Assembly: GCA_943736015.1 (NCBI GenBank)
Contig: OX031061.1
Span: 17,617,290 to 17,681,289 of the forward strand
DNA length: 64,000 bases
Source: Tridacna crocea
Lineage: Eukaryota > Mollusca > Bivalvia > Cardiida > Cardiidae
Direction: 5' to 3'
The notes below the pieces were generated by a model, which had not been told where the DNA came from, made no database searches, and saw only the letters and a program-made list of their open reading frames with translations. Below, one piece after another: positions 15,801 through 64,000 of this stretch. Made by a program: the position numbers and the translations under genes. Each line of letters starts with the position of its first letter. The stretch's first letter is position 1.

Positions 15801-18800
15801 CCTAGAAGAGTAGAAAACATTGTGGGAAAAGGAGAAAATACTGGTTGTCAGCATTTTTAGCTCACCTGAGCACGAAGTGCTCATGGTGAGCTATTGTGAT
15901 CGTGCTGTGTCCGGCGTCCGTCGTCCGTCGTCCGTCGTGCGTCGTGCGGCGTGCGTCGTGCGTCGTGCGTCGTCCGTCGTCAACTTTTTACCTTGTGTAC
16001 GCTCTAGAGGCCACAGTTTTAGTCGGATACTCATGAAAGTTGGTCAGGATGTTTGTCTCGATGAAATCTCGGACGAGTTCGAAAATGGGTCATGTGGGGT
16101 CAAAAACTAGGTCACTAGGTCAAATCTTAGAAAAACCTTGTGTACGCTCTAGAGGCCACATTTTCAGTCGGATACTCATGAAAGTTGGTCAGGATGTTTG
16201 TCTGGATGATATCTCGGACGAGTTCGAAAATGGGTCACGTGGGGTCAAAAACTAGGTCACCAGGTCAAATCTTAGAAAAAACCTTTTGTACGCTCTAGAG
16301 GCCACATTTTCAGTCGGATACTCATGAAAGTTGGTCAGGATGTTTGTCTGGATGATATCTCGGACGAGTTCGAAAATGGGTCACGTGGGGTCAAAAACTA
16401 GGTCACCAGGTCAAATCTTAGAAAAACCTTTTGTACGCTCTAGAGGCCACATTTTCAGTCGGATACTCATGAAAGTTGGTCAGGATGTTTGTCTGGATGA
16501 TATCTCGGACGAGTTCGAAAATGGGTCACGTGGGGTCAAAAACTAGGTCACCAGGTCAAATCTTAGAAAAACCTTTTGTACGCTCTAGAGGCCACATTTT
16601 CAGTCGGATACTCATGAAAGTTGGTCAGGATGTTTGTCTGGATGATATCTCGGACGAGTTCGAAAATGGGTCACGTGGGGTCAAAAACTAGGTCACCAGG
16701 TCAAATCTTAGAAAAACCTTTTGTACGCTCTAGAGGCCACATTTTCAGTCGGATACTCATGAAAGTTGGTCAGGATGTTTGTCTGGATGATATCTCGGAC
16801 GAGTTCGAAAATGGGTCACGTGGGGTCAAAAACTAGGTCACCAGGTCAAATCTTAGAAAAACCTTTTGTACGCTCTAGAGGCCACATTTTCAGTCGGATA
16901 CTCATGAAAGTTGGTCAGGATGTTTGTCTGGATGATATCTCGGACGAGTTCGAAAATGGGTCACGTGGGGTCAAAAACTAGGTCACTAGGTCAAATCTCA
17001 GAAAAACCTTTTGTACGCTCTAGAGGCCACATTTCCAGATGGATACTCATGAAAGTTGGTCAGGATGTTTGTCTGGATGATATCTCGGACGAGTTCGAAA
17101 ATGGGTCACGTGGGGTCAAAAACTAGGTCACTAGGTCAAATCTTAGAAAAACCTTTTGTACGCTCTAGAGGCCACATTTTCAGTTGGATACTCATGAAAG
17201 TTATTCAGGATATTTGTCTGGATGATATCTCGGACAAGATCGAAAATGGGTCATGTGGGGTCAAAAACTAGGTCACTAGGTCAAATGTTAGAAAAACCTT
17301 TTGTAGGCTCTAAAGGCCACATTTTCAGTCCGAAACTCTTGTAAGTTGGTCAGAATGTTTGTCTTGATGATATCTCAGACAGGTTTGAAAATGGGTCATT
17401 GGGGGTTAAAAACTAGGTCACCAGGTCAAATCTTAGAAAAACCTTGTATATGCTCTGGATGCCACATTTTCAGTCCAACACTCTTGAAAATTAGTCAGAA
17501 TGTTTGCCTTTATAATATCTTGGATGAGTTTGAAAATGGGTCATGTTGGGTCAAAAACTGGGTCAATAGGTCAAATGTTATAAACACCTTTTGTATGCTC
17601 TGGAGGACACATTTTCAGTCTGATACTCCTAAAACTTGTTCATAATATTTGTCCTGGTGATACCTTGAATGAGATTGAAAATGGGTCATGTGGAGTCAAA
17701 AACTAGGTCAATGGGTCAAATATTAGAAAAACCTTGTGTACACTCTAGAGGCTACATTTTCTGCCTGATATTCTTCAGACTTGGTCAGAATGTTTGTTTT
17801 GGTGATGTCTCAAAAGAGTTTGATAATGGGTAATTGTCGGGTCCAAAACTAGGTCACTTGATGAAATCTTAGAAAAACCTTTTGTACACTGTAGAGGCCA
17901 CATTTTCAGTCCAATACTCATGAAACTTGGCCAGAATGTTTGTCTTATTGATATCTCAAAAGTGTTTGATGATGGGTAATGTCTGATAAAAAACTAGGTC
18001 ACTGGGAAACTAGATGGTGCATGTTTGGTCAATAAACTCAGATGAGCGATTTCAGGGCCATCATGGCCCTCTTGTCTCCTTTTCCCACAATGTTTTCAGA
18101 AGGCTTTTTCCTCAGAGTCATAAAAACAGGGATTGTTTGCTAAAGGGTTAAGCCATATTTTTCAAGAGTGACACTGGTATACCTACATTGATGTAATTAT
18201 TAGATTATTTTTTGTTTAGTAACATTTCGTAATTTGTCTTTATTTTTTGTTGAGTTACATTTCGTAATTTGTTTTTAGCTCACCTGAGCACAACGTGCTC
18301 AAGGGGAGCTTTTAGGATCACCCGGTGTCCGTCGTGCGTCGTCCGTCGTGCGTCGTCCGTCGTCCGTCGTCCGTCGTGCGTCGTCAACAATTCTTTAAAC
18401 ATCAACTCCTCCTAAACCGTTGGGCGGATTTGGACCAAACTTGGCAGGAATGTTCCTTGGGAGGTCCTCTTTAAAAATTGTTCACAGAATTTGATTCCAT
18501 CAAAAACTCTGGTTGCCATGGCAACCAAATGGAATTTTTTAGCAAATTCTTTAAAAATCTTCTCCTCTGAAACCGCTGGTTGGATTTTAAAATAATTTCA
18601 CAGATATGTTCCTTGGGTGACCCTTTTCAAAAATTGTTCGTGAAATTTTGATTGGTCAAAAAATGTGGCTCTGGTGAATGGGGGCTTCTTGCACTGTACA
18701 GCAATGAAGGAATTCTTAAAAAATCTTCTTCTCTGAAACCGCTGGTCAGATTTTAAAATAATTTCACAGAGATGTTCATTGGGTGACCCTTTTCAAAAAT

Positions 18801-21800
18801 TGTTCGCGAAATTTTGATTGGTCGAGAAACATGGCTCTGGTGAATGGGGGCTACTTGCACTATACAGAAATGAAGAAATTCTTAAAAATTCTTCTTCTCT
18901 GAAACCGCTGGCCAAATTTTAAAATAATTTCACACAGATGTTCCTTGGGTGACCCTTTTCAAAAATTGTTCGCGAAATTTTGATCCGTCAAGAAACATGG
19001 CTCTGGTGAATGGGGGCTTCTTGCACTATACAGAAATGAAGAAATTCTTAAAAATTCTTCTGCTCTGAAACTGCTGGCCAGATTTTGAAATAATTTCACA
19101 GAGATATTCCTTGGGTGACCCTTTTCTAAAATTGTTCGCGAAATTTTGATTGGCCAAGAAACATGGCTCTGGTGAATGGGGGCTACTTGCACTAGATGGA
19201 AATGAAGAAATTCTTGAAAATTCTTCTTCTCTGAAACCCGTGGTCAGATTTTAAAATAATCTGACAGAGATGTTCCTTGGGTGACCCTTTCCAAAAGCTG
19301 TACATATAATTTTGATCCGTCAAGAAACATGGCTCTTGTGAATGGGGGCTACTTGCACTATACGGACATGATGAAATTCTTTAAAATTCTCTTTCTCTGA
19401 AACCCCTGGTCAGATTTTGAAATAATTTCAGAGAGATGTTCCTTGGGTGACCCTTTTCAAAACTTGTTCGTAAATTTTGATCCATCAAGAAACATGGCTC
19501 TCGTGGATGGGGGTTACTTGCTCTTATACAGAAATGAAGAATTCTTAAAAATTCTTCTTTTTGAAACTGATGGTCAGATTTCGAAATGACTTTTACAGGT
19601 GACCTTTTGAAAATTGCTTGGCAAAATTATAAATTTGGTTCCAATGTTTCAACGCTAAAAAAGAAAAAAAAATAGACTGTGGTCATCTCAAAAATTCAGG
19701 TGAGCGATCCAGGGCCATCTTGGCCCTCTTGTTCAAATATACATGTACGCCATTACCCTGCTTCTTCGTGCATGAATTTATGATACTCCCGAAGCAATCA
19801 TAATATGTACGATAAATAGTTATGCATTAGATCAGATCTTTTTATTATTGCCCATAAATATTTTGAAACTATTTATGCATCTGATGTCACAAATATTTAT
19901 TTTTTTCTATAACTTGGGTCAAAATTGAATCATGCCTCTGGCGGGATATAAACCATTTTGTTTGATTGTCTCATCAGCTACTTAACCCTTTACTATACAA
20001 TTCCAAGTTTTAATGATACTCAGTAAGATGTATTTTGAAAACATTGTGGGAAAAGGAGGGAAAGCTGGTATCCATGTGGGAAAAGGAGAGAAAGCTGGTA
20101 TCCAGCATTTTTTCCTTTTCCTACAAAATTTTTACCCTCTCAGAGAGTTTAAAATCATTAAACCCCCGCAAAGCGGATATTTTTGGGGGTATACTGGAAT
20201 CAGCCTGTCTGTCCATGTGTCCGTCCGTGTTTCCATCTGTGTACAAAATACTAGTAATTTTGTGTCGCAAACTCCTCCTACAGTTTTCCTTCAATTGTAT
20301 TGAAACTTTGCACATAATTATACTGATCAAAATTGTATTGAAGATTTGCAAGACGCTATTTTTAATTGTCAACTCTTCGTGGTTGAGGAATTATCTCCCT
20401 TTGAACTTCACACTTTTTTTCTGTCAAAGCGCTGGCAGGGGTATAAAGTCGCATTCAGTGACAGCTCTAGTTTGTACCAGTATCGAATTTGTTGCCTGCA
20501 GATGTTTTGATTTCGGAAAAGTATGAAATTTGGTGCTTTGGAAAGGGTTTACAAGAAAAATTGCATTTAAAACTTTCAGTTAAGAATGAAATCAGTTTTT
20601 CTTCCTCCTCAAACCGCAAAAGAAAAGATGTACTTATCATAGTGCTGTACAAATGCCTTTTTTGAACTCGTGTATTCAACAGCTTAGAGAACACAAAAAA
20701 GGGGAAGGAATCTATTGCTGTTTTGATTGTATGTTCAAAATATTTTCTGTATAAATGAAAAAGAAAAAAAAAAATTGCTCAAATGCATGTCTGACTTTTT
20801 TGGTGTAATTAATAATAGTTATTAATGATCTATAAAGTAATTGATTAACCTCTCACCAAATGACTATGATTTAATGACACTTGAGAAAAAGCCTTTTAAA
20901 AACAATTTGGGACAAGGAGAAAATGCTGGTAACCAGCAGTTTCTCCATTCTCCACAATGTTTTTGAATGCCCTTTCTTCCAGGATCATTAAAACACATAA
21001 TTATTTGGTCAACATTATTCTAGTAATATCATAAGCAGAGAAATTTGAAGGTATGTGAAAGTTGTGTCACAAGTTAGAGAATCAGCTTGAAAAGGGAATC
21101 ACCTGTACAATTCTTCTTGATATTTAAACATGTTATTGTGTCCATTATTAACACTAAGATTTCTTGATTTTATATTAGCATTTGTCGGAGTCATCAGAAT
21201 CCGAGGCTTCAACATTAGAGGTTTGTATCTAACAAGTGTGTGGTGTTGGCTTGAACTTGACTTGTGGTGACCTTTAACCCTTTATCGAACAATCCTGTAT
21301 TTTAAAAGCCCTGAGTTAATATCAAACAATCCTGTATTTTAAAAGCCCTGAGTTATAGGGACAGTGAGAGTAACAAGCCATTTGAAAACGTAGGAAAAGG
21401 AGAAAGTGCTAATAACTAACATTTTCTCCTTTTCCTAAAATGTTTTCTTCTTCCCAGAGCACAAATCCTTTGAGCCACATTTGATTTGTCAGCTTTAAAT
21501 ATTTTGTGTGTGGACAAGTGTAATATTTTGTTGTTTGGTAAAAAGTTAACATAGTGGTAGTCTTGTATAAATACTGGTAGATTTGTTTGTGCTTCTTCTC
21601 GAGATCTTTGCAAAATTGATAAATGCATGGATTAAACTCTTTTCCAAAAAATTGTGTGCATATAACTGTTATACCTTTGGGGAAAAAAAGGTATTTACTT
21701 GTAAAACCATAGTGAGAAATAAGAGAAAATGCTGGTCACCAGCATTTTCTATCTCTATAACCGTTTTTGCTCTTTAAATATTAATTCCATTTTGAAACTG

Positions 21801-27800: not shown

Positions 27801-30800
27801 TACAATGTTTTCTACCCTTCACAAAACAAATTTCATTTTTTTGAGCAACATCTATTTTGTCATCTGCATAGCTTCGAATTTGGAACAATCTTAAATCTTT
27901 GTTGTTTTGTAAAGAGTTAAACCAGGATTGATTTTTTGAATCTCCAGCATAGTAAATTTCTTTCTGAGTATTGATGATAGTAATTGCTGCAAAGTGGATT
28001 TCTCAGTGACCACTGATCATTGCACAGTGGTTATGTAGAAAAGCAGCAAGTGGTTTGGGAAGACTATTGTGAGAAGAATTCTAAAAGAAAACCTAGAAAA
28101 AAATTGACAGGTGTACTTGCCCCTGCTGCACAGTTGAAATAATGTTGAAATCGTGTTGAACACTGTACAAACAAACGGAGGTTCTTGACTATTTCAGTCC
28201 CAATGGAGATGACAGTCTGTATAAGAGAACATCTTAATTACTGGTACAGTTTAAAGGCATATTATCTAGCCAAGACAATGGCTGATATGCCGTTTCAGGT
28301 ATGTGATAGGATTCTTCTTCTTATAGTCATCAAATTGCAAGAAAATCTTGCAATTCCTTTTGTGGGTAGTTCTGATTGAGGGTGACAGGATTCATTCCTC
28401 TCTCACTGCTGACCGTTGTTACAATAACAGTTATTACACACTACAGCCAGTGGCTTTGAAAGAAGGTTGTGCAGAGTACTGGTGGAGGAAACTTCAGAAA
28501 AGCATGGATAGGTGCACCGGCTGCTGAGATGAAACTGAAAAAAGTGTTGAAAATGGCTTTAACCCTTTACCAAACAATCCCTGGTTTTTACGTCCCTGAG
28601 ACAGATGCCTTTTGAAAACATTGTGAGAAAAGGAGAGAATGCTGGTTACCAGCATTTTCTCCTTTTCCCACAATGTTTTCTACCCTGCTAGAAACAAATT
28701 TCAATTTTTGAGTAACATGTATTTTGTCGTCAGCAAGTACTTTTAATTTGGACCAGTCTAAAATTTTGTTGTTTGGGAAAGGGTTAAACACTAGACAATC
28801 AATCAATCAATTTATCAATCAATGGTAACACAACATAGAACATGAAGTTGTCTCAGATCTACTCTGTCTATTAAGGGCAATTCTAATCAGGGCATTTATC
28901 TCAGCCTTGCTCCAGGACCTTTTTAGCTCACCTGAGCACAACGTGCTCAAGGGGAGCTTTTAGGGTCACTGGGTGTCCGTCCAGCGTCGTCCCTCGTCCG
29001 TCGTCAACAATTCTTTAAACATCAACTCCTCCTAAACAGCTGGGCCAATTTGGACCAAACTTGGCAGGAATATTCCTTGGGAGGTCCTCTTTAAAATTTG
29101 TTCACAGAATTTGATTCCGTCAAAAACTCTGGTTGCCATGGCAACCAAATGGAATTTTTTAGGAAATTCTTTAAAAATCTTCTTCTCTGAAACCGCTGGT
29201 CAGATTTTGAAATTATTTCACAGATATGTTCTCTGGGTGACCCTTTTCAAAAAGTGTTCGTGACATTTTGATCCGTCAAAAATTGTGGCTCTGGTGAATG
29301 GGGGCTACTTGCACTATACAGAAATCAAGGAATTCTTTAAAAATCTTCTCCTCTGAAACCGCTGGTCGGATTTTGAAATAATTTCACAGATATGTTCCTT
29401 GGGTGACCCTTTTCAAAAATTGTTCGTGAAATTTTGATCCGTTTAAAAATGTGGCTCTGGTGAATGGGGGCTACTTGCACTATACAGAAATGAAGGAATT
29501 CTTAAAAAATCTTCTTCTCTGAAACCGCAGGTCAGATTTTGAAATAATTTCACAGAGTTGTTCCTTGGTTGACCCTTTTCAAAGATTGTTCGCGAAATTT
29601 TGATTGGTCAAGAAACGTGGCTCTGGTGAATGGGGGCTACTTGCACTATAGGGAATTGAGGAAATTCTTAAAAATTTTTCTTCTCTGAAATCGCTGGTCA
29701 GATATTGAAATAATTTCTCAGGGATGTTCCTTGGGTGACCTTTTTCAAAAAGTGTTTGCGAAATTTTGATTGGTCAAGAAACATGGCTCTGGTGAATGGG
29801 GGCTACTTGCACTATAGGGAAATGAAGAAATTTTTAAAAATTCTTTTTCTCTGAATGGGCTGGACAGATTTTGAAATGATTTCACGAAGATGATCCTTGG
29901 GTGACCCTTTTAAAAAACTGTTCACAAAATTTTGATCCATCAAGAAACATGGCTCTGGTGAATGGGGGCTACTTGCACTATATGGAAATGAAGAAATTCT
30001 TGAAAATTCTTTTTCTCTGAAACCCCTAGTCAGATTTTAAAATAATTTGACAGAGATGTTCCTTGGGTGATCCTTGCTCTTGTGAATGGGGGCTACTTGC
30101 ACTATATGGACATGACGAAATTCTTGAAAATTCTCTTTCTCTGAAACCCCTGGTCAGATTTTAAAAGAAATTTTCCGAAATGTTCCTTGGGTGACCCTTT
30201 TCAAAACTTGTTTGTAAATTTTGATCCATCAAGAAACATGGCTCTCGTGGATGGGGGATACTTGCTCTTATATAGAAATGAAGAATTCTTAAAAATTCTT
30301 CTTTTTGAAACTGATGGTCAGATTTCGAAATGAATTTTACAGGTGACCTTTTGAAAATTGCTTAGCAAAATTATAAATTTGGTTCCAATGTTTCAATACC
30401 TCAAAAAAAATAGGCTATGGTCATCTCAAAAATTCAGGTGAGCGATCCAGGGCCATCTTGGCCCTCTTGTTATCCTTTCCCAAACATCAAAATTTTAGAC
30501 TGTAGAAAGAGAAGAAAATGCTGATCAACAAGAATGTTCATCTTTTCGTACACTTTTTAGCTCACCTGAGCACAACATGCTCAAGGGGAGCTTTTAGGAT
30601 CACCCGGTGTGCGTCAGTGTGTCGTCCGTTGTCAACAATTCTTCAAACGTCAACTCCTCCTAAACCGCTGGGCCAATTTGGACCAAACTTGGCTGGAATG
30701 TTCCTTGGGAGGTCCTCTTTAAAAATTGTTCACAGAATTTGATTCCATCAAAAACTGGTTGCCATGGTAACGAAATGGAATTTTTTAGGAAATTCTTTAA

Positions 30801-33800
30801 AAATCTTGTTCTCTGAAACCGCTGGCCAGATTTTAAAATAATTTCACACAGATGTTCCTTGGGTGACCCTTTTCAAAAATTGTTCGTGAAATTTTGATCC
30901 GTCAAGAAACATGGCTCTGGTAAATGGGGGCTTCTTGCACTATACAGAAATGAAGAAATTCTTAAAAATTCTTCTTCTCTGAAACCTCTGATCAGATTTT
31001 AAAATAATTTCACAGAGATGTTCCTTGGATGACCCTTTTCAAAAATTGTTCACGAAATTTTGATCTGTCAAGAAACATGGCTCTGGTGAATGGGGGTTTC
31101 TTGCACTATGCAGAAATGAAGAAATTCTTAAAAATTCTTCTTCTCAGAAACCGCTGGCCAGATTTTAAAATAATTTCACAGAGATGTTCCTTTGGTGACC
31201 CTTTTCAAAAACTGTTCGCGAAATTTTGATCTGCAAGAAACATGGCTCTGGTGAATGGGGGCTTCTTGCACTATACAGAAATGAAGAAATTCTCAAAAAT
31301 TCTTCTTCTCTGAAACCGCTGGTCAGATTTTGAAATAATTTCACAGAGATGTTCCTTGGATGACCCTTTTCAAAAATTGTTCGTGAAATTTTGATGGGTC
31401 AAAAAACCTGGATCTGGTGAATGGGGGCTTCTTGCACTATACAGAAATGAAGAAATTCTCAAAAATTCTTCTTCTCTCGAACGGCTGGTCAGATTTTGAA
31501 ATGATTTCACAGAGATGTTCCTTGGATGACCCTTTTCAAAATTTCTTCGTGAAATTTTGATTCATCAAGAAACATGGCTCTGGTGAATGGGGGCTACTTG
31601 CACTATAGGGCAATGAAGAAATTCTTAAAAATTCTTCTCTGAAACGGCTGGTCAGATTTTGGAAAATTTTCACAGAGATATTCCTTGGGTGACCCTTTTC
31701 AAAAATTGTTCGTGAAAGTTTGATTTGTTGAGAAACATTGCTCTGGTGAATGGGGGCTATTTGCACTATATGGAAATGAAGAAATTCTTGAAAATTCTTC
31801 TTCTCTGAAACGGCCGGTCAGATTTGAAAATTGTTTCACTGAAATATTCCTTGAATGACCTTTTTTAGAATTTGTTCACGAAATTTTGATAGGTCAAGAA
31901 TCATGGCTCTGGTGAATGGGGGCTACTTGCACTGTACGAAAATTAAGAAACTCCTAAAAATTCTTCTTTTTTGAAACTGCTGGTCAGATTTTGAAAGGAC
32001 TGTTACAGGTGACCTTTTAAAAATTGCTTGGCAAAATAATGATTTTGTTTCCAGTGTTTCATTACCTTCAAAAAAATAGGCTATGGTCCTCTCAAAAATT
32101 CAGGTGAGCGATCCAGGGCCATCTTGGCCCTCTTGTTTCAATTGCTTAGTTGTATAGGCCATTAAGTCTATTAATTGTTTAGTAAATATTTAAAAAAAAA
32201 ATTTGTATAGCTACTTGTTTTCAAGTTTGGTAATGGTTAGTAGTTGTCAAAAGGTACAATTTAGTGCAACAAAGTGGCTCCTTAACCCTTTACCCTATAA
32301 GGCATTTCTATAGTATCTCTAACTGACCCTAAATACCAGCAAGGATGAAGCTATTTCTTATTTGTACATGACCACTTTTGATAGCATACAAAACATTGTG
32401 GCAAAAGGTGAAATTGCTCGTCACGAGCAATTTCACCTTTTGCTACAATGTTTTCCAAAGGCTCCTGCAAGCAGTGTGTAGAAATGAGTATCTATGGAGT
32501 AAAGGGTTCACTCTTTACAAACCGACAAAATCTTAGACAAGTCCAATTTGAAAGCATTTTCAGACAACAAATAAATGTGACTAAAAAATTGAAACTTGAA
32601 TTTGGAAGAGTAGAAAACATTGTGGGGAAAAATTAAAATATTGGTTACCAGCATTTTTGCCTTTTTCCACATTTTTTTTCAGAAGACTTCTTCCTTGGGG
32701 TCGTTAAAGCCAGGGATTGTTTGATAAAGGGTTAATAAATGAAACTTGCATTCCTTCAATATTATTTCATGATTTTAAATTACATCAGTATGACCACAAG
32801 TGGGGATTGTTTTACACCATGTGGCTTTCAACACGCAAAAAGGGGCATTTGGCTGTTTGTGTAAAGTGCCATTTGGATGAGCCTCTTCAATCTGAGCAGA
32901 CTAATCCGAGATTAGAATCAAATGTTAACACAAAGTGCTGTCTCTGATTAGCATAACCAGACTGTGCAGGCTGATCCGAGACAACGCTTTATGCAATTGC
33001 CCGAAAGCCCCTATTCGTTTGTTGAAGGTTGTGTAGTGTGCAATGAATTTAAAAGCAAAAAAAAAACAGATGTTAGGTTTAAAAATAAAAAAAAAAAAAA
33101 TCTGCTGCTTTGTAATTATTTTATTTCTTCCTTGTTTCTCGCATGTTCTATGATTTTCCTCACAGATTATATTTCCATTGATATACGGAAGTATAGTGTA
33201 CTGGATGACCTCACAGCCGAGTGACTTTATGAGATTTGTCATGTTTCTTACCCTGGCCACACAGACCTCCCTTGTTGCTCAGTCACTGGGTCTCTTAATA
33301 GGAGCTGCCACATCTTTACAGGTAAAATGAATCAGTCTGGAATTAAAGTACATCTTCACTCATTTTCACCCAAATTTTATCCAGATTTTAACCCTTTACC
33401 ATATGATAAAATATTAGACATGTACAAAATGTAAGCATTTGCAGATGACAGTTTCATTGTGGCTCATACGAAATGATTTTTCTGTGATAGGGAAGAAAAC
33501 ATTGTGGGAAAAGGAGAAAATGCTGGTAACCAGCATTTTCTTGTTTTCCCAAAATGTTTTGAAAAGCCTTGTATCCCAGGGGCATTAAATTGGGCATTGT
33601 TTGGTAAAGGGTTAAATCAGTTATTGTTGTCCTTTCTGCTTTTAAATGAGGACAAAGCCCTCGAGTTTTTCTCTCCCTTACACTACATACATATTTGTAA
33701 TTTATTTGTTTCCAAAACTGAGCCATTCTACACAGTTTCAGTTTTTATATTATTTCTAGCTGCAACATTTTATATTATTTCTGGCTGATTCTATACTGGA

Positions 33801-36800
33801 ATCAGCCTGTCTGTTTGTGTGTCCATCCACCCTCGTGTCCGTCTGTGTACAAATAATTGCCTGTTTTTGTCAAAGGGCTGGGGGGGTATTAAGTCACATT
33901 CAGTGACTGCTCTAGTCTTTGTAGTCTACCTGTTATGACAAAATCCTGACTTATAATAACCCTAAGGAATCAGCCCTTTGAAAACAACATGCGAAAGGAA
34001 AAAATGTGGGCAACCAGTATTTTCTCCTTCTTTCTCAGTGTTTTCTATACTCTCATTTTAATTAATTCATTCAACAACATAAAGGTTTTGGAAACATAAT
34101 TTGAAAAGGAGAAAATGCTGGTTATAAGTCAAGGTTGGCAAAAAGCCGGTCAATATGAGTATTGACCGGGCCGGCGGTTTTAACCGGTTAAAACCGGTCA
34201 ATACTGGTCAATAGTGGTCGATTGGTGGTCAATTGAAGTGGTTGATTGGGTCGATTAAATCACTAACATACCTGTCCTGTTTCTAAGCTAGTCTGAAAAG
34301 CTCTCCTAAATCCTGTACTGAAGATATATTACATATTATCATCAGTATCATCTGCTGGTCAACTGAAGAGGTTGGTTGGATTGACCTTCCTCTTTGAACT
34401 TACATGCAGGTCAATTCTTTTCAACCAAAGAACTTTTAAGTTTTATCCATCATCATTCCTTATAGGTTAGATAACCATTTATAGTATTGCATCTTTTCTC
34501 TCTTTCTTTCCCCCTCCCACCACAAATACACTTAGATTTTTAAAAAAATTTGATTATTTAAAAGTTCAAATATAGCTAATTGCAGAAGAAAGTGTCACCC
34601 ATGTGTAAACCATTGTGAAATTAACCTGTCATTAAATCTAAATGCATATTGAGTACCCATAAGGCTGTGACTGATTAACTAAACAATAATTAGGGATACA
34701 TCAATATCTGAAGCATATTCAAGTGTCTATCTACACCTTTACATTGTTGTCAAAACACATTAAAAGGTGTAAAAGTTGCCCCTTTCTATCCCAATGGGAG
34801 TGGCTTAAATTACAAAAGGGACCAATCATGTATCCCTATTGGGGTAGAATACTTGACACCAGGCCTTATTCCTAAAGTGTGAAATACTGACTTATATGCA
34901 ATCAAGTTAATATCTTATCATCAAGCAGTTACTTAAGGTGTCAAAAATGAAACCTAAAGACCTCATTAGGAACTTATATAGAGTTTTGGAAAACTGGCAA
35001 AAGCCAGCTGATAAGTAGCCTTGGCAGGGACAAAACACTCTTTCCACAAAGGTCAGCTCTCATAATGGTGAATTCAATCAAACTTGGAACCGAAAAAAAG
35101 GAAAAAAAAAACAACTATAAATCATCCACTGAATCACATAACTGTCCACTTAAAATGCATCTGACCAGAAAAATTTCTAAATGACCACTACAAATATCCA
35201 ATCGACCAGTATTGACCACTTTGGGAGTATTGACCGGGGCGGTTTTAACCGGTTAAAACCGCTGGTTAAAACCACCCCTGGTTTCGACCGCCCAACCTTG
35301 TTATAAGTGTTTATCATTCTTTTCAAAGAGAAATTAAAAACTTGATATCTTGTCTGCAATACAAAGCATTTGCAAGTAATAATTTAACCCTTTCCCAAAC
35401 AATCCCTGGTTTTCAGGGGTCTGGAATAGTAGCCTTTAGAAAATATGTGGTAAAAGGAGAAAATGCTGGTAACCAGCATTTTCTCCTTTTCCCATAATGT
35501 TTTCTACCCTATCACAGACAGAGATCATCTTTTTCAGCAAGAGTTGAATTGTCGTCTGCAAATGCTTTCAATTTGGTCTAGTCCAAAAGTTTGTGGTTTG
35601 GGAAAGGGTTAAAATAAGTAAAGAGATGTCTTTGAAAGGGGAGAAAATGAGAGAAAAAAAAAGTTGGATGTTTGTGCAGTATTATTTTGATATACACTGG
35701 TTTGCAAAGGCACCTATAGTTGTAAAAATAGACTTTGAGGGTTGATTTCTTTCTTTTCTAGGTTGCTGTGTTTTTGGGACCAATTACAGGCATACCTTTA
35801 TTGTTATTTAGCGGATTTTTTGTGAACTTTGACACGATACCAATCTACCTGCAGTGGCTTTCATATATGTCTTACATTGGGTATGTATTCATGTACATTC
35901 CTAGAGTTTAGTTGGTGAGGGATAGATTCTATTGTAGATACACAAGCCATCTTCAGCTTTAATTCATTACTGAACGACAAAATTTTAGGTTTGTCCAAAT
36001 GGAAAGCATTTGCAGACGACAAATTGAAAGTGACTGAAAATTTGAAATGTGTTTTGTGAAGGGTAGAAAACGTTGTGAGAAAAGGAGAAAATGCTGGTCA
36101 CCAGTATTTTCTCCTTTTCCCCACAATGTTTTCTAAAGGCTTTCTCATGGTCATCACTAGTAGGGATTGTGTAGTAATGGGTTAACAACTAAACTATAGT
36201 AATTTGTTGACAAATTACTTCAAAAAACATCTTTTTGACTCTTTTCCAAATGATAATATTTTAGACTTGCCCAAATTGAAAGCATTTGCAGACAACAAAA
36301 TAAATGTGACTCAAAAATTTAAAATTGACAACAGAAGAGTAGAAAACATTGTGGGAAAAGGAGAAAATGCTGGTTACCAGCATTTTATCCTTTTCCCACA
36401 ATGTTTTCAGAAGGCCTCCCTCTGGGTCGTAAAAACCAGGATTGTTTGGTAAAGGGTTAAATTATGGATTGTAAGCATAAAGTAGAATTAAGTATATACA
36501 TTTAAGTTTTCAATGAGAAAAAAGAAACACACACACACACACACACACAAAAAAAACCCTCTTTACAAGTAGTTTTTTCTTTTACTATTATTGCTTGGTC
36601 CAAGTGCTAGTTGCTGTGAGAAAAATGAAGTATAATATCAGATAAAAAGTAATCAAAAGGTAAAGCAACCTTCTAAATTTTGACCTGCATTTTAACAACT
36701 TAAACTAGAGTAATTTATTTACAAATGACTTTAAAAAACATCTTTTTAAAAATTATGGATTATAAGCATAAAGTAGGATTAAGTATATACATTCAAGTTT

Positions 36801-47087: not shown

Positions 47088-48705
47088 AGCTCCACTGGCC
47101 GAAGGCCAGCGTGCTTATGTCGTGGCCCGATGTCCGTCGTGCGTCCGTCTGTGCATTAACTTTTTCTTTAAACATCTTCTCTGAAACTACCCATCCAATT
47201 TTGATGAAACTTCACAGAAATGATCCTGCCATGGTCCTCTTCAGAATTTAATTCCTTCAAAAACTCTGGTTGCCATGGCAACAAAACTGAAAAAATTTGA
47301 AAATCTTTAAAAATCTTCTTGTCTGAAACCGTAAGGCCTAGGGCTACCAAATTTGGCATGTAGCTTTATCTAGTGAACCTCTACCAAGTTTCTTCAAATT
47401 ATAGCCCTGGGGTCAAAATTGGCCCCGTCCCGGGGGTCACAAGTTTTACATGGGCTTATTTAGGGAAAACTTTAAAAACTCCTCTTCCACCCAGGCATAG
47501 GGCCTAGGGCTACCAAATTTGGGATGTTGTTTTATCTAGTGGACCTCTACCATGAGTGTCTAAATTATAGCCCGGGGGTCAAAATTGGCCCCGCCGTGGG
47601 GGTACCAAGTTTTACATAGGCTTATATAGGGAGAACTTTAAAATTCTTCTTCCGCCTAGCCATAGGGCCTAGGGCTACCAAATTTGGCATGTAGCTTTAT
47701 CTAGTGGACCTCTACCAAGGGTGTCCAACTTATAGCCCAGGGGTCAAATTTGGCCCCGCCCCGGGGGGTAACAAATTTTACATAGGCTTATATAGGGAAT
47801 ACTTTCAAAATCTTCTCACACCTAGCTATAAGGGCTATCAAATTTTGCATGTAGCTTTATCTAGGGGGTCTCTACCGAGGGTGCCCAAATTATAGCCCTG
47901 GGGTCAAATTTAGCCCCGTCACGGGGTCACAAGTTTTACATGGGCTTATATAGGGAAACTTTAATAATCTACTTGTACATAGTCATAAGGCCTAGGGCTA
48001 CCAAATTTTGCATGTAGCTTTATCTAATGAGCCTGTACCAAGAGGGCCCAAATTTTAACTTTGGGGATCAAGTTTGACCCCAACCCAGGGGTCACAAGTT
48101 TTACATTGGCTTTATAAACCTGTCTCATGGGTCACATGTTTTACAGGGCCTTTTATTGAGCAAACTTGTTTTACAGGGCTTTTTATTGGGCAAGATTCAA
48201 AATTCTTCGTGTTTATAACCACACATTCTAGTCTATATTGTGGGTCTGGGGTCAAAATTGGCTCCATCCAGGGATCACAAGTTTAACATGGGCTTCAAAA
48301 TATAATCACTTCAATTGAAACATTAATCAAGGGAAATAACTCTTTTTTATGAAAGATAAAGTTTGGTACTATTTACCTCCCTTGAATATCAAACTACATT
48401 GATACATGAATGGTGCTAGACATTAAGTTTTTTGATAGAAAATATTCTGTTTTCAAGTGTGATTCATTTTGATGCTAATAGTTATGCTCACATGAGGCAA
48501 ATAATAAATTCAGAGTAAGGTTTCTATCATTCAGCTTATTTTTCCAAGGATTTTACCTTTCATGCTAATGAATTAACCTGCTTGTACTGCCTGACAGTGT
48601 TCATTGCTTTTGAAGGCCCTCTTTTTCATGGTCATGAACACTTCAATTTGTGTGGTAAAGGGTTAAAAAGCCAGTGGACCAATACAGGCCATCATGGCCC
48701 TCTTG
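47088..48705 (+). mobile_element. H2 Helentron-like element
   Basis: AGCTCCACTGGCCGAAGGCCAG (first 20 nt include hairpin CTGGCC/GGCCAG), GTCCGTCGTGCGTCC, GGTTGCCATGGCAAC, about five ~166-bp units with GGCCTAGGGCTACCAAATTT, then GCCAGTGGACC and hairpin GGCCATCATGGCC with CTCTTG. TCCACTGGC and GCCAGTGGA are inverse. A PalTTAA right end lies just inside the 3' end (48598-48666), and MITE arm sequence flanks both sides (TCCTTTTCCCACAAT before, CACAAGACAAATTTC after). Confidence 0.78.
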
Positions 48706-48713
48706 TTTCTTTT

Positions 48714-49272: not shown

Positions 49273-49275
49273 GTA

Positions 49276-49348
49276 CGACCACGACGAGACTCGAACTCGC
49301 AATCTTCTGATTCGAAGTCAGACGCCTTATCCATTAGGCCACGCGGCC
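49276..49348 (-). tRNA. tRNA-Arg (anticodon TCG)
   Basis: A 73-nt cloverleaf. The acceptor pairs GGCCGCG with CGTGGTC (two G-U), discriminator G. The A-box region is TGGCCTAATGG, the anticodon stem TCTGA/TCAGA holds loop CTTCGAA, and the B-box region is AGTTCGAGTCT. It closely follows the animal tRNA-Arg(TCG) pattern, so it reads CGA codons. It is divergent to LRRC58, about 500 bp upstream of its ATG. Confidence 0.95.
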
Positions 49349-49746
49349 GCCTATGTGTTACAGAGACAATACAACAGATTTTAGAAATAGTTTGGATGGG
49401 CGTACGTGCATTTTGAGGCACGAAATAATTTCTAAAGCAAGATATATCGTACATTGCAGACTTCAAATATTTTTTTTCAAAGAAAATTAGACTGTAAATG
49501 GCACACTGAAATACGCTGTATACGGCACAATGATTAATATTTTGCCACTTCCTCGCTCTACTTACATTATGGGTCAGAATGGTACTCTTCTTCGAACACA
49601 CACATTCTGAATTTAGATAATATGCGGAAAACCAACTTATGACCTTACTCGATCTCCTCCACATTTTTCCTTAAAATATCAGCCGGTCAAAGCGTGATAC
49701 TGAACTATATCCATAAACAAACACCGTCCTAGTTTACCTTGTGTAA

Positions 49747-49753: not shown

Positions 49754-49854
49754 CTTGGGAAGTAAACATGTGAACGACTGACGCGTGTGGATGTAGCACG
49801 TTCGGAAAGAGGCTGGCGAGGAAGTCGGCCAAGAGTGCTGAGAGGAACAAAGTG

Positions 49855-50327
49855 ATGGCAGAAAATTATTTGATGGATACTTCTAGTGATGGAGAATTTA
49901 CAGATGACAACGCGGTTGATCTTTCTTACTCCGAACTCCAGTTTATTCCGGATTCAATTACATCCGACCCACTTTCCTGGATGTCGATTCAGCTGAATCA
50001 CAACGACTTTGTGAAGTTTCCAGTAGAACTGGGAACTTTTAGAAACCTGCTGAGTGTTGATTTGAGTAACAATGGCCTAGCAACAATCGGACACGAAATA
50101 CTCAATTTAAAAAACATGAAAACTTTTACAGCACGTAACAATTTACTAAATGCCTCATGTCTGCCAAAGGATTTTGGAACATTAACTGCCCTAGAGACTT
50201 TAAACTTGAGTGGAAATCGATTTGAGGAATTTCCTATGCAAGTAACAGAGCTGAACAAACTGAAAAGTCTATACCTTGGTGCCAACAAGATAGAACAGCT
50301 TCCGAACGCTGTCAAGAACTTAAAATG
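49855..50327 (+). CDS. LRRC58: LRRC58 exon 1
   Basis: Encodes MAENYLMDTSSDGEF, then the first six LRRs to LPNAVKNLK. Ends in phase 2 (TG) at donor GTAAGA; exon 2 supplies C to make a cysteine codon. An upstream GTG at 49852 is not the start. Confidence 0.94.
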
Positions 50328-53300
50328 GTAAGATTAGGTGACAAAGAGGTTGACATGTTTTGGTAAGAGATGAGTTGGTTGGTTGGTTGGTTGGGGTTTA
50401 ACGCCACTTCAACAGCATAAGGTCATGGCGGTCGGTGACGCACATGTGTTTCCTGGCTTTCTCCCACTGGTACTTACACTACTTCCTTTCCAAAGCTATC
50501 AACTATGTTTCTCACATGCTTCAGCAAAGGTAAGAGGCGAAAATACGCCGGAAAGAAAGTTCGCCTCAACTGGGTATCAAACTTGCAACCACCAGGTCAT
50601 GAGTCTGACAAGCTCACCGCTGAGCCACCCAGGCGGGCTGGTAATAGATGAGTGTGGTAACAGATTTACAGAGTAAATGGATTAGATGCTTCATTAACAA
50701 AGCAATTATATTGTGTTTATGTTCTGTGACGTTCTTAACACCTAATGTACACCCTTGATAGATGGGTTAAAACCTTTTATTTTTTCACTTTCTACCTCTT
50801 TCGCTTGAAAGACAGGGATTCCATATGGTTAATACATACTGTACAGTATGAAATGACATACATAGCAAAAATTATTTATGAAATATAGTTGAAATCACAA
50901 ATTAAGGTTTTAAATAACGAAGGTTTGAAGAAAATAAAGCCATAAAGATTTTTAAATCATCACAAAACATTAATATTTTAGGCTTGTCCAAATTAAAGCA
51001 TTTTCAGACAACAAAATAATATAAGTGACTGCAATTTATTTTGGGAAGAGTAGAAAACATTGTGGGAAAAGGAGAAAAAGCTGGTTACCAGCATTTTCTC
51101 CTTTTCCCACAATATAAAGCTTCATTCTCAGGGGTGTCAAAAGTAGGGATTGTGTGGCAATTGGTTAATTAAACAATGTTGTTGGTTTTTTTTTGTCATG
51201 AAATGTGGGCTTTACATGTAGCTCCACTGGTGGATGTGCAGTATCTGATGTTTATGCATTTTCTTCTGTGAAACTACTGTCCTAAGTGCACACAAATGGT
51301 TTTTCTATGGCCCTCTTTTGACTTCTTCAAGCAGGGCCCACGCTGTCGATCGCCATTTTCGCCATTGGCGAAAATATTCAGAAATTGGCTAAAAAAAAAA
51401 TTAGTTGGCGAATTAAGTGACTAAAGAGTTGAAAAGGGTAAAAAAAAAAGGGTCAAGGTTTAAAATACTACCCCAAACAGCAGCTGATAATACACATTAC
51501 CTGTGTGCAGTGAACCGATTATTCCCTCTGAGACATGTTGTGTAGAATACACCCTTATCGGTTATGTAAACAATTAACACATGATCAACAGTCAATAATG
51601 ATACTGGTGATTCAATAAGTCTAGAATCCATCCAGATGTTAATTGGATAATAATCCACCTTGAGAATTAATCTTAACTCCTTTAACTAGATGAATATTTG
51701 TGATATGGCTGGCGACGTATTTACAATGGATGCCGGTAATTGATGGATTTATCAGTTTGAGAGAAAGAATTCTACGGAAGTGTTAATTGATAAAAGAATT
51801 GACAGTTTTCTTCAAAGACAAATAAGAAATGATTAAAAAACAAATTTTTTTTTAAAATTGTTCTTGATTAGATTAGAAATAATTCTGTATAAATCTGGTC
51901 ACATTTTATTTGTAGAGAGCAGTCTCAAATTTCTATGTTTCACATTATTTCTTTAAACTTGATCCATTGACAAATGAATTTTGGAGAATAAAAATATTCT
52001 GTCATGTCCTCAAAGACAGAACCAGTTATATTTGAGAGTAGGCAGACTACCAGTGTAGGCCTTAAGTAGGATGACTGCATGTTGACCTTGACCTACACAA
52101 GTTTTTTTTTTTTAGTTTTCATAAATAAAAACTGGGATGTATACATGAAGATGTTAAAAACATGTATTCAGGTCAATCATTTTTTGGGTAATGTACCATT
52201 TTGATAGTGCATGGGGTACAGGCCATTCTTAACAGGCTTAATTCTTTACCAAACAACATTTTAGACTTTTCCAAATTGAAAGTACTAGCAGACGACAAAA
52301 GAAATGCAAATCAAAAATATAAATTTGGTTTAACAAGGACGAAAACAGTGTGGGAAAAGGAGAAAATGCTGGTTACCAAATTGAAAGCACTTGCATACGA
52401 AAAAGAAAATGCAACTCACAAAAATAAATTTGTTTTTAAAAGGTTGGCTACAAGTCACTGAAATCGGCTAAAGGTTTTACCAATTGGCTAAACCTCTGGC
52501 TAAAAGAATTTTTGACCCAGGGTCGGCCCTGTTCAAGGTATTTCATTTAACTCTTTTCCAAACGATCCATGGTTTTTATGACCCTGGGAAAGAAGGGTTG
52601 GTAAACTTCATAGGAAAAGGAGAAAATGCTGGTAACCGGCATTTTTTTTCTTATACTACAATGTTTTCTACTTTATCACACAGCTGAAGCTCATTTGTAT
52701 CAATTCTGAATGTGTACCCTGCAGATACTTTGAATGTGAAAGAGTCTGAAGTTTGATATGTGAGAAAGGGTAAGACAAAAAGTACTTCCCTGGTAATGGC
52801 AACAAAAATGAAAAAGATTAAAAACCTTCTCTACAACAGCAGTTTGGAATTCCGAGTAGTTTAACCCATTACCACACAATCCCTTCTTTTGACAACCCTG
52901 AGAAAGACACCTTTAGAAAACATTGTGGGATAAGGAGAAAATGCTGGCAAGCAGCATTTTCTCCTTTTCCCACAATGTTTTCTACCCTTCACAAAACAAA
53001 TTTTAAATTTTCAGTCACTTTTATTTTGTCTTCTGCAAATGGTCTCCATTTGGACAAGCCTAAAACACTTGTTTGGTAATGAGTTGAAATTGCGTTGTGG
53101 AAAGAGTTGAATGGTTCTGAAACAAAGGTAAAGAAAGATTAGTACTGATACATGTAAAGATAATCAGAATAGAATGAACTGAAAAACAATGACACCAACA
53201 GTACAACTATGTTTTGTTTTCTCTTGGCAGCTTGGAAGCTCTCTATATGGGAGGAAATCAACTCGCAGATGTTCCAGCAGAACTGGGTTATCTACATAGA

Positions 53301-54967
53301 TTGACATACTTGGTGCTTTGTGATAACAGACTGCATAGCCTGCCACCAACTCTGAGCAATTTACGTAAATTGCGTTTACTCAGCCTTCATAATAATTTAT
53401 TACAAACCCTGCCTCAAGAACTTGTGTCATTAAATCTTGTAGAACTGAGCTTACGGAATAATCCACTTGTAGTGCGCTTTGTTCAAGAGCTCAGTTTTAA
53501 TCCGCCATCTCTAATGGAGCTTGCTGGTAGAGTTATAAAGATTGAGCGAGTGAAATACGGGAAAACAGATCTGCCAAGTCATCTAGTCAAGTATTTATCT
53601 TCTGCACAACGATGCGTTAACCCGAAATGCAAAGGCAAGTTTTCTTATGTTTATTTTTCAGGAGAATATGCATCTTTAGAAGAATGTGAATCATAACTTA
53701 TTGTTCTACTGAGCTCCAGATACAGAGGCTGAGAGGGCGTGATTTTGATTTCAAAATTGAAAGTAGTAATTATTCTCCACTAAACCCTATGTTGTGGGCA
53801 CTCATTAGAATCGTCTCATCGAGACAATTCTAATGAGTACCCACACCATAGGGTTTGAAAGAGAAATGATTGATTTAGAATCCCATCACTCCCTCTTATC
53901 TGTAGCTCTGATTTATTTTTTTGCTAACGATTCTAATATGTTTATATGAACCATATATATGTGGCAAAAGGGGGTTAAGTGCATCTCCACTGTGCATTAT
54001 AGCATGCTGGTCTTTACAGAATGCCTAATCCATGAAATTAATTTTGTCAAAGAACCAATTGAATCATGAACTAAACTGGTCCTTTGTGCTGCAGAAATTT
54101 TTTCCGATAGCAAAATGTTGTGACCCAGGCCAGTCTTGGCAAATTGCACAGGCTGAGTCAATAATTTTTGCATCTTGCATTGAATCTTTACCAAGCAATC
54201 CCTGATATTTACGGTCCAGGAAAAAAATATTTAGACATCCCTAAATAGAAAGCATTTGCAGACAACTAATAAAATGAGCCTCATATGCTAGGAAAAGGAG
54301 AAAGTGCTCTTTACCATTTATCCAATGTTTTAAAAAGCATTGTTTAATTCTTTAGGGTATCTACTTGTAACTTTTTACACAATAGCAGATTAAAGACTTG
54401 TCTGAACAAATGATGAAGTTGGCCTGAAATGAAGAAAAAAAAAAAACCAAAAATGTCCTGAATTTTGGTAAGTGTAAAATTTGTTGTGTGGGATTAGGTT
54501 AATTCAGCTTTTGGCTTAGCAACTTTGTTACCAAATGAAAAAAATTCAAACATGTCCAAGCAACAAGATAAAAGTGGCTGAAATGATGAAATTAGTCCTT
54601 GATGGGGCAGGGAACATTGTGGAAAAAGGGGAAAAAAAGCAAGTTACCAGCATTTTCTCCTTTTAGCTCAGTGTTTTCCAAAGCCTTCTGGCTTGGTGTT
54701 ATTATAAACAGGATTGTGTGGTCAAAGGTTGTTGACATTTACTGTAATCAATAACATTTCATTCTATAATGGATTGCAGGTGTCTACTTCAGCTGTAAGG
54801 TGGAAGACGTGAAATTTGTTGATTTTTGTGGCAAGTACAGGCTTCCACTCCTTCAGTACCTGTGTTCACCAAAGTGTACCTACACAGCAGCTGTTACTTG
54901 CAGCGATAGTGAAACAGATGATGAAGATTCAGCAAGAAACAAGATGAAGAAAGTGCTGTTGGGATAG
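49855..54967 (+). CDS. LRRC58: LRRC58 orthologue, complete, 3 exons
   Basis: Exons 49855-50327, 53231-53634 and 54780-54967 total 1065 nt, 354 aa plus TAG (human about 371 aa). About ten leucine-rich repeats (for example LETLNLSGNRFEEFP, LTYLVLCDNRLHSLP, LRLLSLHNNLLQTLP) run to residue ~205, ending in NNPLVVRFVQEL. A conserved C-terminal part follows with cysteine pairs CVNPKC and CSPKC around VDFCGKYRLPL, an acidic stretch SDSETDDED and the terminal KVLLG shared with vertebrates. No signal peptide or membrane segment, so probably intracellular. The ATG is the first in frame after a stop at 49771. My recollection is that recent work links vertebrate LRRC58 to ubiquitin-mediated turnover of cysteine dioxygenase; that is not visible here. 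Confidence 0.95.
50376..50638 (-). mobile_element. tRNA-derived SINE with 15-bp target duplication
   Basis: On the - strand: head with GGGTGGCTCAGCGGTGAGC (A-box like) and GGTTGCAAGTTTGATACC (B-box like), body ending GGCGTTAAACCCC, and tail (CCAA)n. TGGTAAGAGATGAGT (50361-50375) and TGGTAATAGATGAGT (50639-50653) are the target duplication, one mismatch. It lies 48 bp inside LRRC58 intron 1. Confidence 0.85.
50960..51168 (-). repeat. PalTTAA MITE, R-first, in LRRC58 intron 1
   Basis: ATTTTAGGCTTGTCCAAATT start; palindrome intact but right arm ends early (CACAATATAAAGC). TTAA at 51165-51168. Confidence 0.82.
51220..51331 (+). repeat. H2 fragment, 5' end only
   Basis: AGCTCCACTGG start, CTTCTGTGAAACTACTGTCC and TTTCTATGGCCCTC match H2 47088 without its microsatellite. 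Interrupted by the hAT-like element at TTCAAG. Confidence 0.6.
51332..52531. mobile_element. Second hAT-like non-autonomous element, 1200 bp
   Basis: Starts CAGGGCCCACGCTG, ends CCCAGGGTCGGCCCTG; direct repeat TTCAAG (51326-51331, 52532-52537) abuts both ends, two bases short of a normal hAT duplication. Carries a partial R-first MITE (52237-52378). No transposase frame. Confidence 0.65.
52547..53087 (+). repeat. Two PalTTAA MITEs in LRRC58 intron 1
   Basis: 52547-52773 has a diverged right arm and R. 52861-53087 is well kept except for centre GGCAAGC. The second ends 143 bp before exon 2. Confidence 0.85.
53231..53634 (+). CDS. LRRC58: LRRC58 exon 2
   Basis: Acceptor TCTTGGCAG. Encodes LEALYMGGNQLADVPAELGY through RFVQELSFNPPSLMELAGR to CVNPKCK. 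Ends in phase 1 at AAAG followed by GCAAGT, a GC donor matching the GC-AG consensus. Reading past it gives a different tail and a stop at 53694, losing the conserved C-terminus. Confidence 0.94.
53709..53910. repeat. Palindromic MITE (CAGAGCTCC family), copy 3
   Basis: Lies in LRRC58 intron 2, 75 bp past the GC donor. Central TCTCATCGAGACA with arms CTCATTAGAAT/ATTCTAATGAG; terminal GAGCTCCAGATA and TATCTGTAGCTCTG. Confidence 0.75.
54184..54730. repeat. Two decayed PalTTAA copies in LRRC58 intron 2
   Basis: 54184-54345 keeps L (CAAGCAATCCCTGATATTTA) and R-inverted words. 54528-54730 is R-first with AAAAGCAAGTTACCAGC centre and ends 49 bp before exon 3. Confidence 0.6.
54780..54967 (+). CDS. 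LRRC58: LRRC58 exon 3
   Basis: Acceptor TGGATTGCAG. Encodes GVYFSCKVEDVKFVDFCGKY, LPLLQYLCSPKC, the acidic patch and KMKKVLLG before TAG. It is missing from simple ORF lists because it has no internal start, but the match to the LRRC58 C-terminus is clear. Confidence 0.95.
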
Positions 54968-62189: not shown

Positions 62190-63247
62190 AGCTCTACTGG
62201 CTGAAAGCCAGCAGAGCTTATGTCATGGCTGGGTTTCCGTCGTCTGTCCCTTCGTCTGTCCGTCTGTTAGTATTTTTCTTGTTTACGCAATAAAGTCTTC
62301 ATTTCTTGTCAGATTTTTGTGAAACTTGCACAGTTTGTTTATCTCATCAATAGCTTCAACCCTATTGATTTTGAGAAAAATCTAACAAACAATATTGGAA
62401 AAGTAGCCATTTCAAGTTGAAAATTTCCAATTCTTGTTTACGTGATAAAGTCTTCATTTTAGGTCAGATTTATGTGAAAGTTGCACAATTTGTTTTTATG
62501 GGAAAAGTAGCCATTTCAAGTTGAAAATTTCCAATGCTTGTTTATGGGATAAAGTCTTCATTTGTTGTCAGATTTTTGTGAAACTTGCACAGTTTGTTTA
62601 TCTCATCAATTACTTTAACCCCATCGATTTTGAAAAAAATTCGACAAACAGTGTGGGAAAAGTAGCCATTTCAAGTTTAAAATTTACATTTCTTGTTTAC
62701 GCAATAGTCTTCATTTTAGGTCAGATTTGCATGAAACTTGCAGAGTTTGTTTATCTTATCAATAGCTTCAACCCTGTTGATTTTTGAAAAAAATTCCAAC
62801 AAAGAGTATTGGAAAAGTAGCCATTTCAAGTTAAAAACTTTCATTTCTTGTTTACGTGATAAAGTCATTTTTAGTCAGATTTCCGTGAAACTTACACAGT
62901 TTGTTTATTTCATCTATAGCTTTAACCCTGTTGATTTTGAAAAAAAATCTTACAAACAGTATGGGAAAAGTAGTCTTTTCAAATTGAACAATATCATTTC
63001 CTGTTTACATGATCAAGTATTTATTTGTGATCAGATTTTATGAATTTTTCAGCTTGTTTATCCCATCAATAGCTTTTTAACCCTGTTGAGTTTGAAAAAA
63101 TTCAACCAACAGTAATGGAAACATAGCCATTTTGAGTTGAAAAGTCAATTTTTTTTGTCTTTTTGCGTAATGACTTCCTATGTATGCTTGAGTTAAAAGC
63201 AAACTCTCTGCCAGTAGAGCATATTCAGGCCCTTCAGGGCCTTCTAG
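62190..63247 (+). mobile_element. H3 Helentron-like element
   Basis: AGCTCTACTGGCTGAAAGCC start: stem AGCTCT/AGAGCT with inner CTGGCT/AGCCAG. Then a GTCTGTCC run, about six ~150-bp units (TTTGTTTATCTCATCAATAG, AAAGTAGCCATTTCAAGTT), GCCAGTAGAGC, and hairpin AGGCCCTTCAGGGCCT with TCTAG. GCTCTACTGGC and GCCAGTAGAGC are an 11-bp inverse pair. Confidence 0.8.
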
Positions 63248-63255
63248 TTCTCTTA

Positions 63256-63316
63256 AAGCCAGCAGAGCTTATGTCATGGCAGGGTTTCCAACGTCCATCC
63301 ATCTGTTAGTCTTTTT
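63256..63316 (+). repeat. H3 5' fragment interrupted by H1
   Basis: AGCCAGCAGAGCTTATGTCA, GGCAGGGTTTCC, CCATCTGTTAGTC match 62205-62272 and stop where the next H1 element begins. Confidence 0.7.
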
Positions 63317-64000
63317 AGCTCACCTGAGCACAACATGCTCAAAGGGAGCTTTTAGGGTCACTGGGTGTCCGTCGTCCGTCATGCATCGTCAACAATTCTT
63401 TAAACATCAACTCCTCCTAAACCGCTGGGCCAATTTGGACCAAACTTGGCAGGAATGTTCCTTGGGAGGTCCTCTTTAAAAACTGTTCACAGAATTTGAT
63501 TCCGTCAAAAACTCTGGTTGCCATGGCAACCAAATGGAATTTTTTAGCAAATTCTTTAAAAATCTTCTCCTCTGAAACTGCTGGTCGGATTTTGAAATTA
63601 TTTCACAGATATGTTCCTTGGGTGACCCTTTTCAAAACCTGTTCGGGAAATTTTGATCCGTCAAAAATTGTGGCTCTGGTGAATAGGGGCTACTTGCACT
63701 ATACAGAAATCAAGGAATTCTTTAAAAATCTTCTCCTCTGAAACTGCTGGTTGATTTTGAAAAATAATTTCACAGATATGTTCCTTGGGTGACCCTTTTC
63801 AAAAATTGTTCGTGAAATTTTGTTCTGTCAAAAATTGTGGCTCTGGTGAATGGGGGCTACTTGCACTATACAGAAATCAAGGAATTCTTTAAAAATCTTC
63901 TCCTCTGAAACTGCTGGTTGGATTTAGAAATAATTTCACAGATATGTTCCTTGTGTGACCCTTTTCAAAAATTTTTCGTGAAATTTTGATCCGTCAAAAA
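63317..64000 (+). mobile_element. H1 Helentron-like element, cut by window end
   Basis: AGCTCACCTGAGCACAACAT, GTCCGTCGTCCGTC, GGTTGCCATGGCAACC and three 168-bp units are visible; the 3' end lies beyond the window. Confidence 0.8.

Follow-up and report, generated by a model that had tools for sequence, protein, structure and literature searches.

The window, by which we mean the whole 64,000-bp stretch of DNA analysed here, contains six complete elements, another truncated at its right-hand edge, and a single decayed copy, all built on a common plan (Table 1). Very probably they are non-autonomous Helentron-associated elements (HINEs), short and non-coding, which would be copied in rolling-circle fashion by a Helentron protein. 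The plan opens with TTTTT-AGCTC and a 5' hairpin, continues with a GTCC-type microsatellite and a tandem array, and closes with an inverse copy of the start on the 3' side, a GGCC palindrome and a CTCTTG or CTAG tail. With element boundaries set at AGCTC on the left and at the CTTG or CTAG tail on the right, the full plan is directly observed in all six complete elements, each of them on the + strand. AGCTC occurs 35 times on the + strand of the window, and the seven occurrences preceded by TTTTT are all element starts.

Table 1. Positions of the elements and of associated features in the window.
Feature	Position	Strand	Description
H1a	15859-18074 (15854 with leading TTTTT)	+	2216 bp; 145-bp array x13.9 at 15990-18003
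H1a, 3' side	subTIR variant TCAGATGAGC 18038-18047; palindrome 18055-18069	+	inside palindromic MITE copy
H1b1	18277-19731 (18272 with T run)	+	1455 bp; subTIRs 18278-18287, 19696-19705
H1b1, interior	166-bp array 18544-19581; palindrome 19712-19726	+	
H1b2	28925-30469 (28920 with T run)	+	1545 bp; subTIRs 28926-28935, 30434-30443; 166-bp array
H1b3	30559-32135 (30554 with T run)	+	1577 bp; subTIRs 30560-30569, 32100-32109; 166-bp array; flanks weakly MITE-like
H2	47088-48705 (47083 with T run)	+	1618 bp; subTIRs 47091-47099, 48670-48678; 166-bp array; in MITE sequence
GTTGCCATGGCAAC palindrome, RFX X-box type	47269..47282	+	left body of H2
H3	62190-63247 (62185 with T run)	+	1058 bp; subTIRs 62191-62201, 63210-63220; irregular 104/153-bp array; CTAG end
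Second H3 left end	63248..63316	+	head-to-tail, abuts H3 3' end; part of 5' hairpin missing; interrupted by H1b4
H1b4	starts 63317 (63312 with T run), leaves window at 64000	+	5' subTIR 63318-63327; 3' end beyond window
Decayed H1b copy	6904-7368	+	left end and array start; 3' end missing

All seven intact starts carry a 5' hairpin, which folds at -12.8 to -25.0, and all six complete elements have a palindrome after the 3' subterminal inverted repeat (subTIR), which folds at -7.2 to -11.7, both calculated with RNA energy parameters and without shuffle control. The core of the 5' hairpin is imperfect in each family, with a bulge or a mismatch in the second arm. Its loop is a GAA triloop in H1a, H2 and H3, AAC in H1b1 and H1b2, and wider in H1b3 and H1b4. 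The 3' subTIR sits 26-27 nt from the element end, and the tail reads CTCTTG in five complete elements and TTCTAG in the sixth. The preliminary description had named a GTCC-like microsatellite, and such a stretch is readable in all six complete elements, with a 7-bp array called by TRF in two of them (H1a and H1b1). Its minisatellite of 145-168 bp agrees with the tandem arrays of H1a (145 bp) and of H1b and H2 (166 bp) but not with that of H3, where the repeats are irregular at 104/153 bp. In addition, the range of 15858..64000 given there holds the complete elements but leaves out the decayed H1b copy, and the H1b element at 63317 has the expected left end but runs off the window, so that only its left part is visible.

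The two ends of each element match each other in a family-specific way. GCTCACCTGA lies at 15860, 18278, 28926, 30560 and 63318, and its inverse, TCAGGTGAGC, at 19696, 30434 and 32100. H2 pairs TCCACTGGC at 47091 with GCCAGTGGA at 48670, and H3 pairs GCTCTACTGGC at 62191 with GCCAGTAGAGC at 63210. The inverse pairs listed in the preliminary description are found at these positions as given, except that the H1a pair is inexact: the 3' copy of H1a carries one mismatch in 11, an uncompensated C-A. The cognate match is thus exact over 9-11 bases in five of the six complete elements and 10/11 in H1a. For each complete element, we searched the subterminal 35 nt for the longest exact inverse match to the first 20 nt and compared its length with 20,000 shuffles. 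The match is 10 bases in each of H1b1, H1b2 and H1b3, 9 in H2 and 11 in H3, lengths that were reached by 3, 2, 1, 11 and 0 of the 20,000 shuffles, respectively. In H1a the longest exact match is only 5 bases because the single mismatch splits the run; 5,778 of 20,000 shuffles reach this length, and by exact match alone it is not significant. Among random placements in the window, 112 of 20,000 gave a match of at least 9. Since the three complete H1b copies represent one family, these data amount to only three independent end pairs.

Between families, the end match does not exceed 7 bases, the best being that of the H3 start with the H2 end. The ends of H2 and H3 are nevertheless related, with TCCACTGGC against TCTACTGGC at the 5' side and GCCAGTGGA against GCCAGTAGA at the 3' side, and we directly observe one compensated substitution between them. 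The proposal that the ends change together while the layout is kept is borne out by the cognate runs, by their shortness between families and by this compensated change; in the parts of PMC4067079 drawn on here, such co-change is already a rule for naming families of this kind. There, the definition of a HINE family requires a subTIR identical over 11 bp or more. Measured against a subTIR of ~11 bp, H3 matches in 11/11 positions and H1b, H2 and H1a in 10/11, with one mismatch each, and only H3 qualifies under the strict rule of 11 identical bp. The oyster HINE study, in the sections used here, accepted subTIRs with one mismatch as predominant (PMC7492417).

The insertion sites were compared with paralogous sequences in the window. 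T follows the right end of all six complete elements, so that T stands on both sides. A palindromic MITE of ~225 bp is packed in the window (51 near full-length model hits; 194 hits covering 19,301 of 64,000 bases on both strands, palindrome double hits included), and H1a lies inside one copy. Examples are found at 1944-2168 (-) and 45572-45798 (+), with ends like TTAACYCWTTACCAAAC...GTTTGGTAAAGGGTTAA, putatively piggyBac-like TTAA ends. When the flanks of H1a are joined, they match the MITE model with 185 bits and two extra T at the junction. Among the matches that cross the junction, 36 of 96 read CCAGCATTTTCTCCTTTTC, a count in which one copy of the palindromic MITE may appear on both strands, and with longer flanks 143 of 186 hits cross the junction. 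The joined flanks of H2 match the model with 53 bits, again with two extra T, and 31 of 71 hits cross the junction; among three crossing hits shown, two have two fewer bases in the T run, and the third has none fewer but a shifted gap. At these empty sites, clean for H1a and less clean but fair for H2, we observe no target duplication of at least 2 bp and a net gain of two T. A 1-bp duplication of T is possible at both. The proposed insertion between T and T is therefore in keeping with both sites.

The remaining sites are less telling. The joined flanks of H1b3 match the MITE model weakly, with 19 bits and one extra base at the site, and have one crossing hit at 73%. No paralogue crossing the junction was found within the window for H1b1 (0/3) or H1b2 (0/27). 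For H3, the sole crossing hit is the H3 start itself, since the second H3 left end, which matches H3 positions 12-55 at 90.9% over 44 nt, forms the right flank. This head-to-tail remnant fits the tandem pattern of Helitrons, and whole Helitron elements in tandem are reported in the cited part of PMC7492417, though a second insertion into this T run would produce the same arrangement.

Three other identities were weighed. The first, ordinary DNA transposons of TIR type (MITEs) whose short ends are inverted repeats and whose targets are duplicated, had been named in the preliminary description as the outcome that would overturn its reading. They do share with the present elements short inverted repeats near both ends, and coding capacity is not seen here, but 26-27 nt separate the 3' inverted repeat from the element end, T stands on both sides, and the H1a and H2 sites are without a duplication of at least 2 bp, all of which makes this identity highly improbable. 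Canonical Helitrons begin with 5' TC, end with 3' CTRR and insert between A and T. We rejected this class, as the 5' start is TTTTTAGCTC in seven of seven cases, the 3' end is CTTG in five of six and T is present on both sides; the single CTAG tail (1/6) fits CTRR. A Helitron2-type origin, with asymmetrical TIRs, palindromes at both ends and a Rep/helicase without endonuclease, would account for the inverted pair at the ends and for the palindromes on both sides, as the consulted text of PMC4067079 describes them. The published HINE/DINE-1 plan, in turn, includes a microsatellite, a 5' IR nested within the subTIR and central repeats, as do the present elements, and we regard Helitron2 as quite unlikely. 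The Helentron-associated identity put forward in the preliminary description is supported by the subTIRs, an IR complementary to the 5' subTIR, the microsatellite and central repeat arrays, the 3' palindrome, and TT insertion, with T on both sides, without a duplication of at least 2 bp (H1a and H2). This placement draws on the structural features open to testing in the non-coding elements, with subTIRs slightly short by the strict 11-bp rule.

Among the eight listed stop-to-stop ORFs of at least 130 aa in the window, no Rep/helicase was detected (Pfam, E 0.001); two are leucine-rich-repeat exons and six have no match. The 5' subTIR and the inverse copy at the 3' side would both be recognised by a Rep/helicase(/endonuclease) protein, encoded by an autonomous Helentron that lies elsewhere in the genome. 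One strand would then be copied by rolling-circle replication, the copying would stop at the 3' palindrome plus the CTNG tail, and the copy would be inserted at a T run without target duplication. The array between the ends would be passenger sequence and exchangeable. As a single protein would have to recognise both ends, a change in one subTIR would survive only if the other subTIR changed to match, and recognition would be by the protein rather than by pairing of the ends with each other. Alternatively, the two ends might base-pair in a single-stranded intermediate and close a loop, in which case complementarity itself is kept and a protein reads the structure. The compensated change between H2 and H3 preserves the pair, and the hairpin's own second arm is imperfect in each family, with the core of the 3' copy matching exactly in five of six elements. 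Against end pairing, it is the sequence itself, not the pairing alone, that is fixed among the three complete H1b copies, and H1a retains its C-A mismatch. With only three independent pairs, end pairing and recognition by a protein cannot be told apart, and we hold end pairing to be unlikely.

Our comparisons of the element interiors suggest that the end pair may be the unit that is kept. Arrays and spacers were compared by z against shuffles of two-base blocks, so the z values are rough. H1a and H1b agree in the 5' subTIR and in a large part of the 5' hairpin, with no homology in the array (z 0.3 to 1.1) or in the left spacer (z 1.3, H1b1 only). H1b1 and H2, conversely, have a common left spacer (z 24.3) but different subTIRs, and H1b1, H1b2, H1b4 and H2 have an identical block of 26 bases. 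The arrays of H1b and H2 give z 3.6 to 7.8, with the best shuffle reaching or exceeding the real score in two of three comparisons, a weak likeness at best. H1a and H3 resemble each other weakly in both array (z 5.6) and spacer (z 7.4). For the other arrays, z is 2.2 for H1a against H2, 2.1 to 3.8 for H1b against H3 and -0.1 for H2 against H3. With z ranging from -0.1 to 7.8 across pairs under these rough shuffles, we rejected common descent of all arrays. Bodies and ends are thus observed in different combinations, with the middle apparently changing and the end pair kept together. A similar situation is described in the pages of PMC7492417 cited here for Cg_HINE group 2, which has related flanks and unrelated arrays; the converse does not appear in those pages.

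The find is real but mostly ordinary, in that these are new members of a plan already published. HINE-type anatomy is on record for mite, fly and Pacific oyster in the portions of PMC4067079 and PMC7492417 cited. As described there for the Pacific oyster (PMC7492417), Cg_HINEs have, as here, a 5' subTIR, a complementary IR, a GTCY/GTCC/GTCK microsatellite and a 3' subTIR with palindrome, and like the present families they show element-specific subTIR changes and TT insertion without TSD. Their central repeats average 140-180 bp, whereas the H3 array is irregular, and their exact subTIR runs are 11-12 bases against 9-11 here. This likeness is drawn from the described plan, and it is the basis for calling the DNA mollusc-like. 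The HINE-Mo, DINE-1 and Helentron families, as presented in PMC4067079, similarly have subTIRs near the ends, an IR (DINE-1), a 3' stem-loop and a T-rich TT target. In the mite, however, the 3' subTIR lies 38-60 nt from the end rather than 26-27, and the number of T varies in those families, whereas five T precede all seven intact starts here. Of 751 intact Helitrons in a chromosome-level assembly of the Pacific oyster, 257 have subTIRs and a third of these a 5' IR as well; according to the cited text only one has a microsatellite (PMC7992393), unlike the elements here.

The bivalve elements Pearl (CvA, CvE, CvG), DTC84 and MgE, likened here by their description, have short repeat arrays between conserved flanks; the Pearl repeats are about 160 bp. 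A 15-base element pattern matched 10 viral contigs, none of them element-like over the 55 bases displayed behind the match. With longer exact patterns there was no match in either the viral contigs or the genome contigs collection, and a literature search with the letters of the H1 start returned nothing related. The family-specific matched ends provide a key for pairing orphan HINEs with autonomous Helentrons, a pairing that the Pacific oyster study, in the sections cited, could not make (PMC7492417).

The leading T run is exactly five in all seven intact AGCTC starts; the decayed H1b copy has six T, then C. If the element brings two T, its targets need exactly three, for which the probability is 0.121 per site (window T|T sites) and 3.8e-7 for seven. 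Given at least 2 T the value for seven is 1.1e-4, and given at least 3 T it is 0.068, which therefore leaves room for strict TTT|T targeting. Of 87 matches to the MITE site used by H2 and H1b3 (strands counted apart), 68 read TGT and one reads TTT, with T at both filled sites, and the tandem copy left of H1b1 reads TCT, again with T at the filled site. The H1a site is TTT anyway and the H3 copy matching the H1b4 target already has five T, so both are uninformative. Thus, where a paralogue exists, the middle base is non-T (G, G, C) and becomes T once filled at three of five sites (H2, H1b3 and H1b1), and is T anyway at the other two.

We tentatively raise the possibility, less likely than not in our view, that the leading TTTTT is part of the element and that it overlays and replaces three target bases (TNT), with the net gain of two T. 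Three of the five sites favour such replacement and two fit either reading, which makes it a lead on few cases. Two of the three sites are the same MITE position, the match of H1b3 is weak, with a difference at one more base, and the H1b1 case is a tandem copy of which the left side alone is comparable. In addition, a preference for T-rich targets would also select such variants, which counts against replacement. In the mite study, as far as the cited part goes, no target modification was found and the placing of the T bases was left open (PMC4067079). If true, replacement by the five T would point to strand annealing or to a 3-base target change at Helentron insertion, and if holding in many copies it would show how these elements join their target.

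Several further features were noted in the window. GTTGCCATGGCAAC, the palindrome in the left body of H2, recurs in H1b copies at 7104, 18512, 29132, 30758 (one mismatch) and 63517. Five of these six sites are exact and the sixth has one mismatch, and each lies within an H1b or H2 copy. Allowing one mismatch gives no further site in the window, and allowing two adds a single site, at 46758. In the cited text of PMC3414849, the palindromic RFX X-box consensus is the same GTTGCCATGGCAAC. By this consensus it is a candidate RFX site, and a transposon carrying it could spread RFX sites. Because related copies inherit the palindrome, its count is not independent functional evidence. Elsewhere, GGGGGTATACTGGAATCAGCCTGTC is found at 20185 and 27294, each time followed by a GTCC/GTCT-like microsatellite, with a shorter match at 33793; these stretches are perhaps the left ends of a further repeat family. 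We dropped them as a further GTCC-like family of the present type, as the window holds no exact inverse of their start. A perfect palindrome, (G)CGGTTTTAACCGGTTAAAACCG(C), of 22-24 bases is present in two copies ~1 kb apart (34175-34196 and 35239-35262). Two leucine-rich-repeat ORFs (Pfam LRR_8, LRR_4) at 49774-50328 and 53193-53693 on the + strand are probably exons of one gene. Finally, ARAGORN places a tRNA-Arg (tcg) at 49275-49349 on the - strand, which may be a gene or a tRNA-derived repeat.
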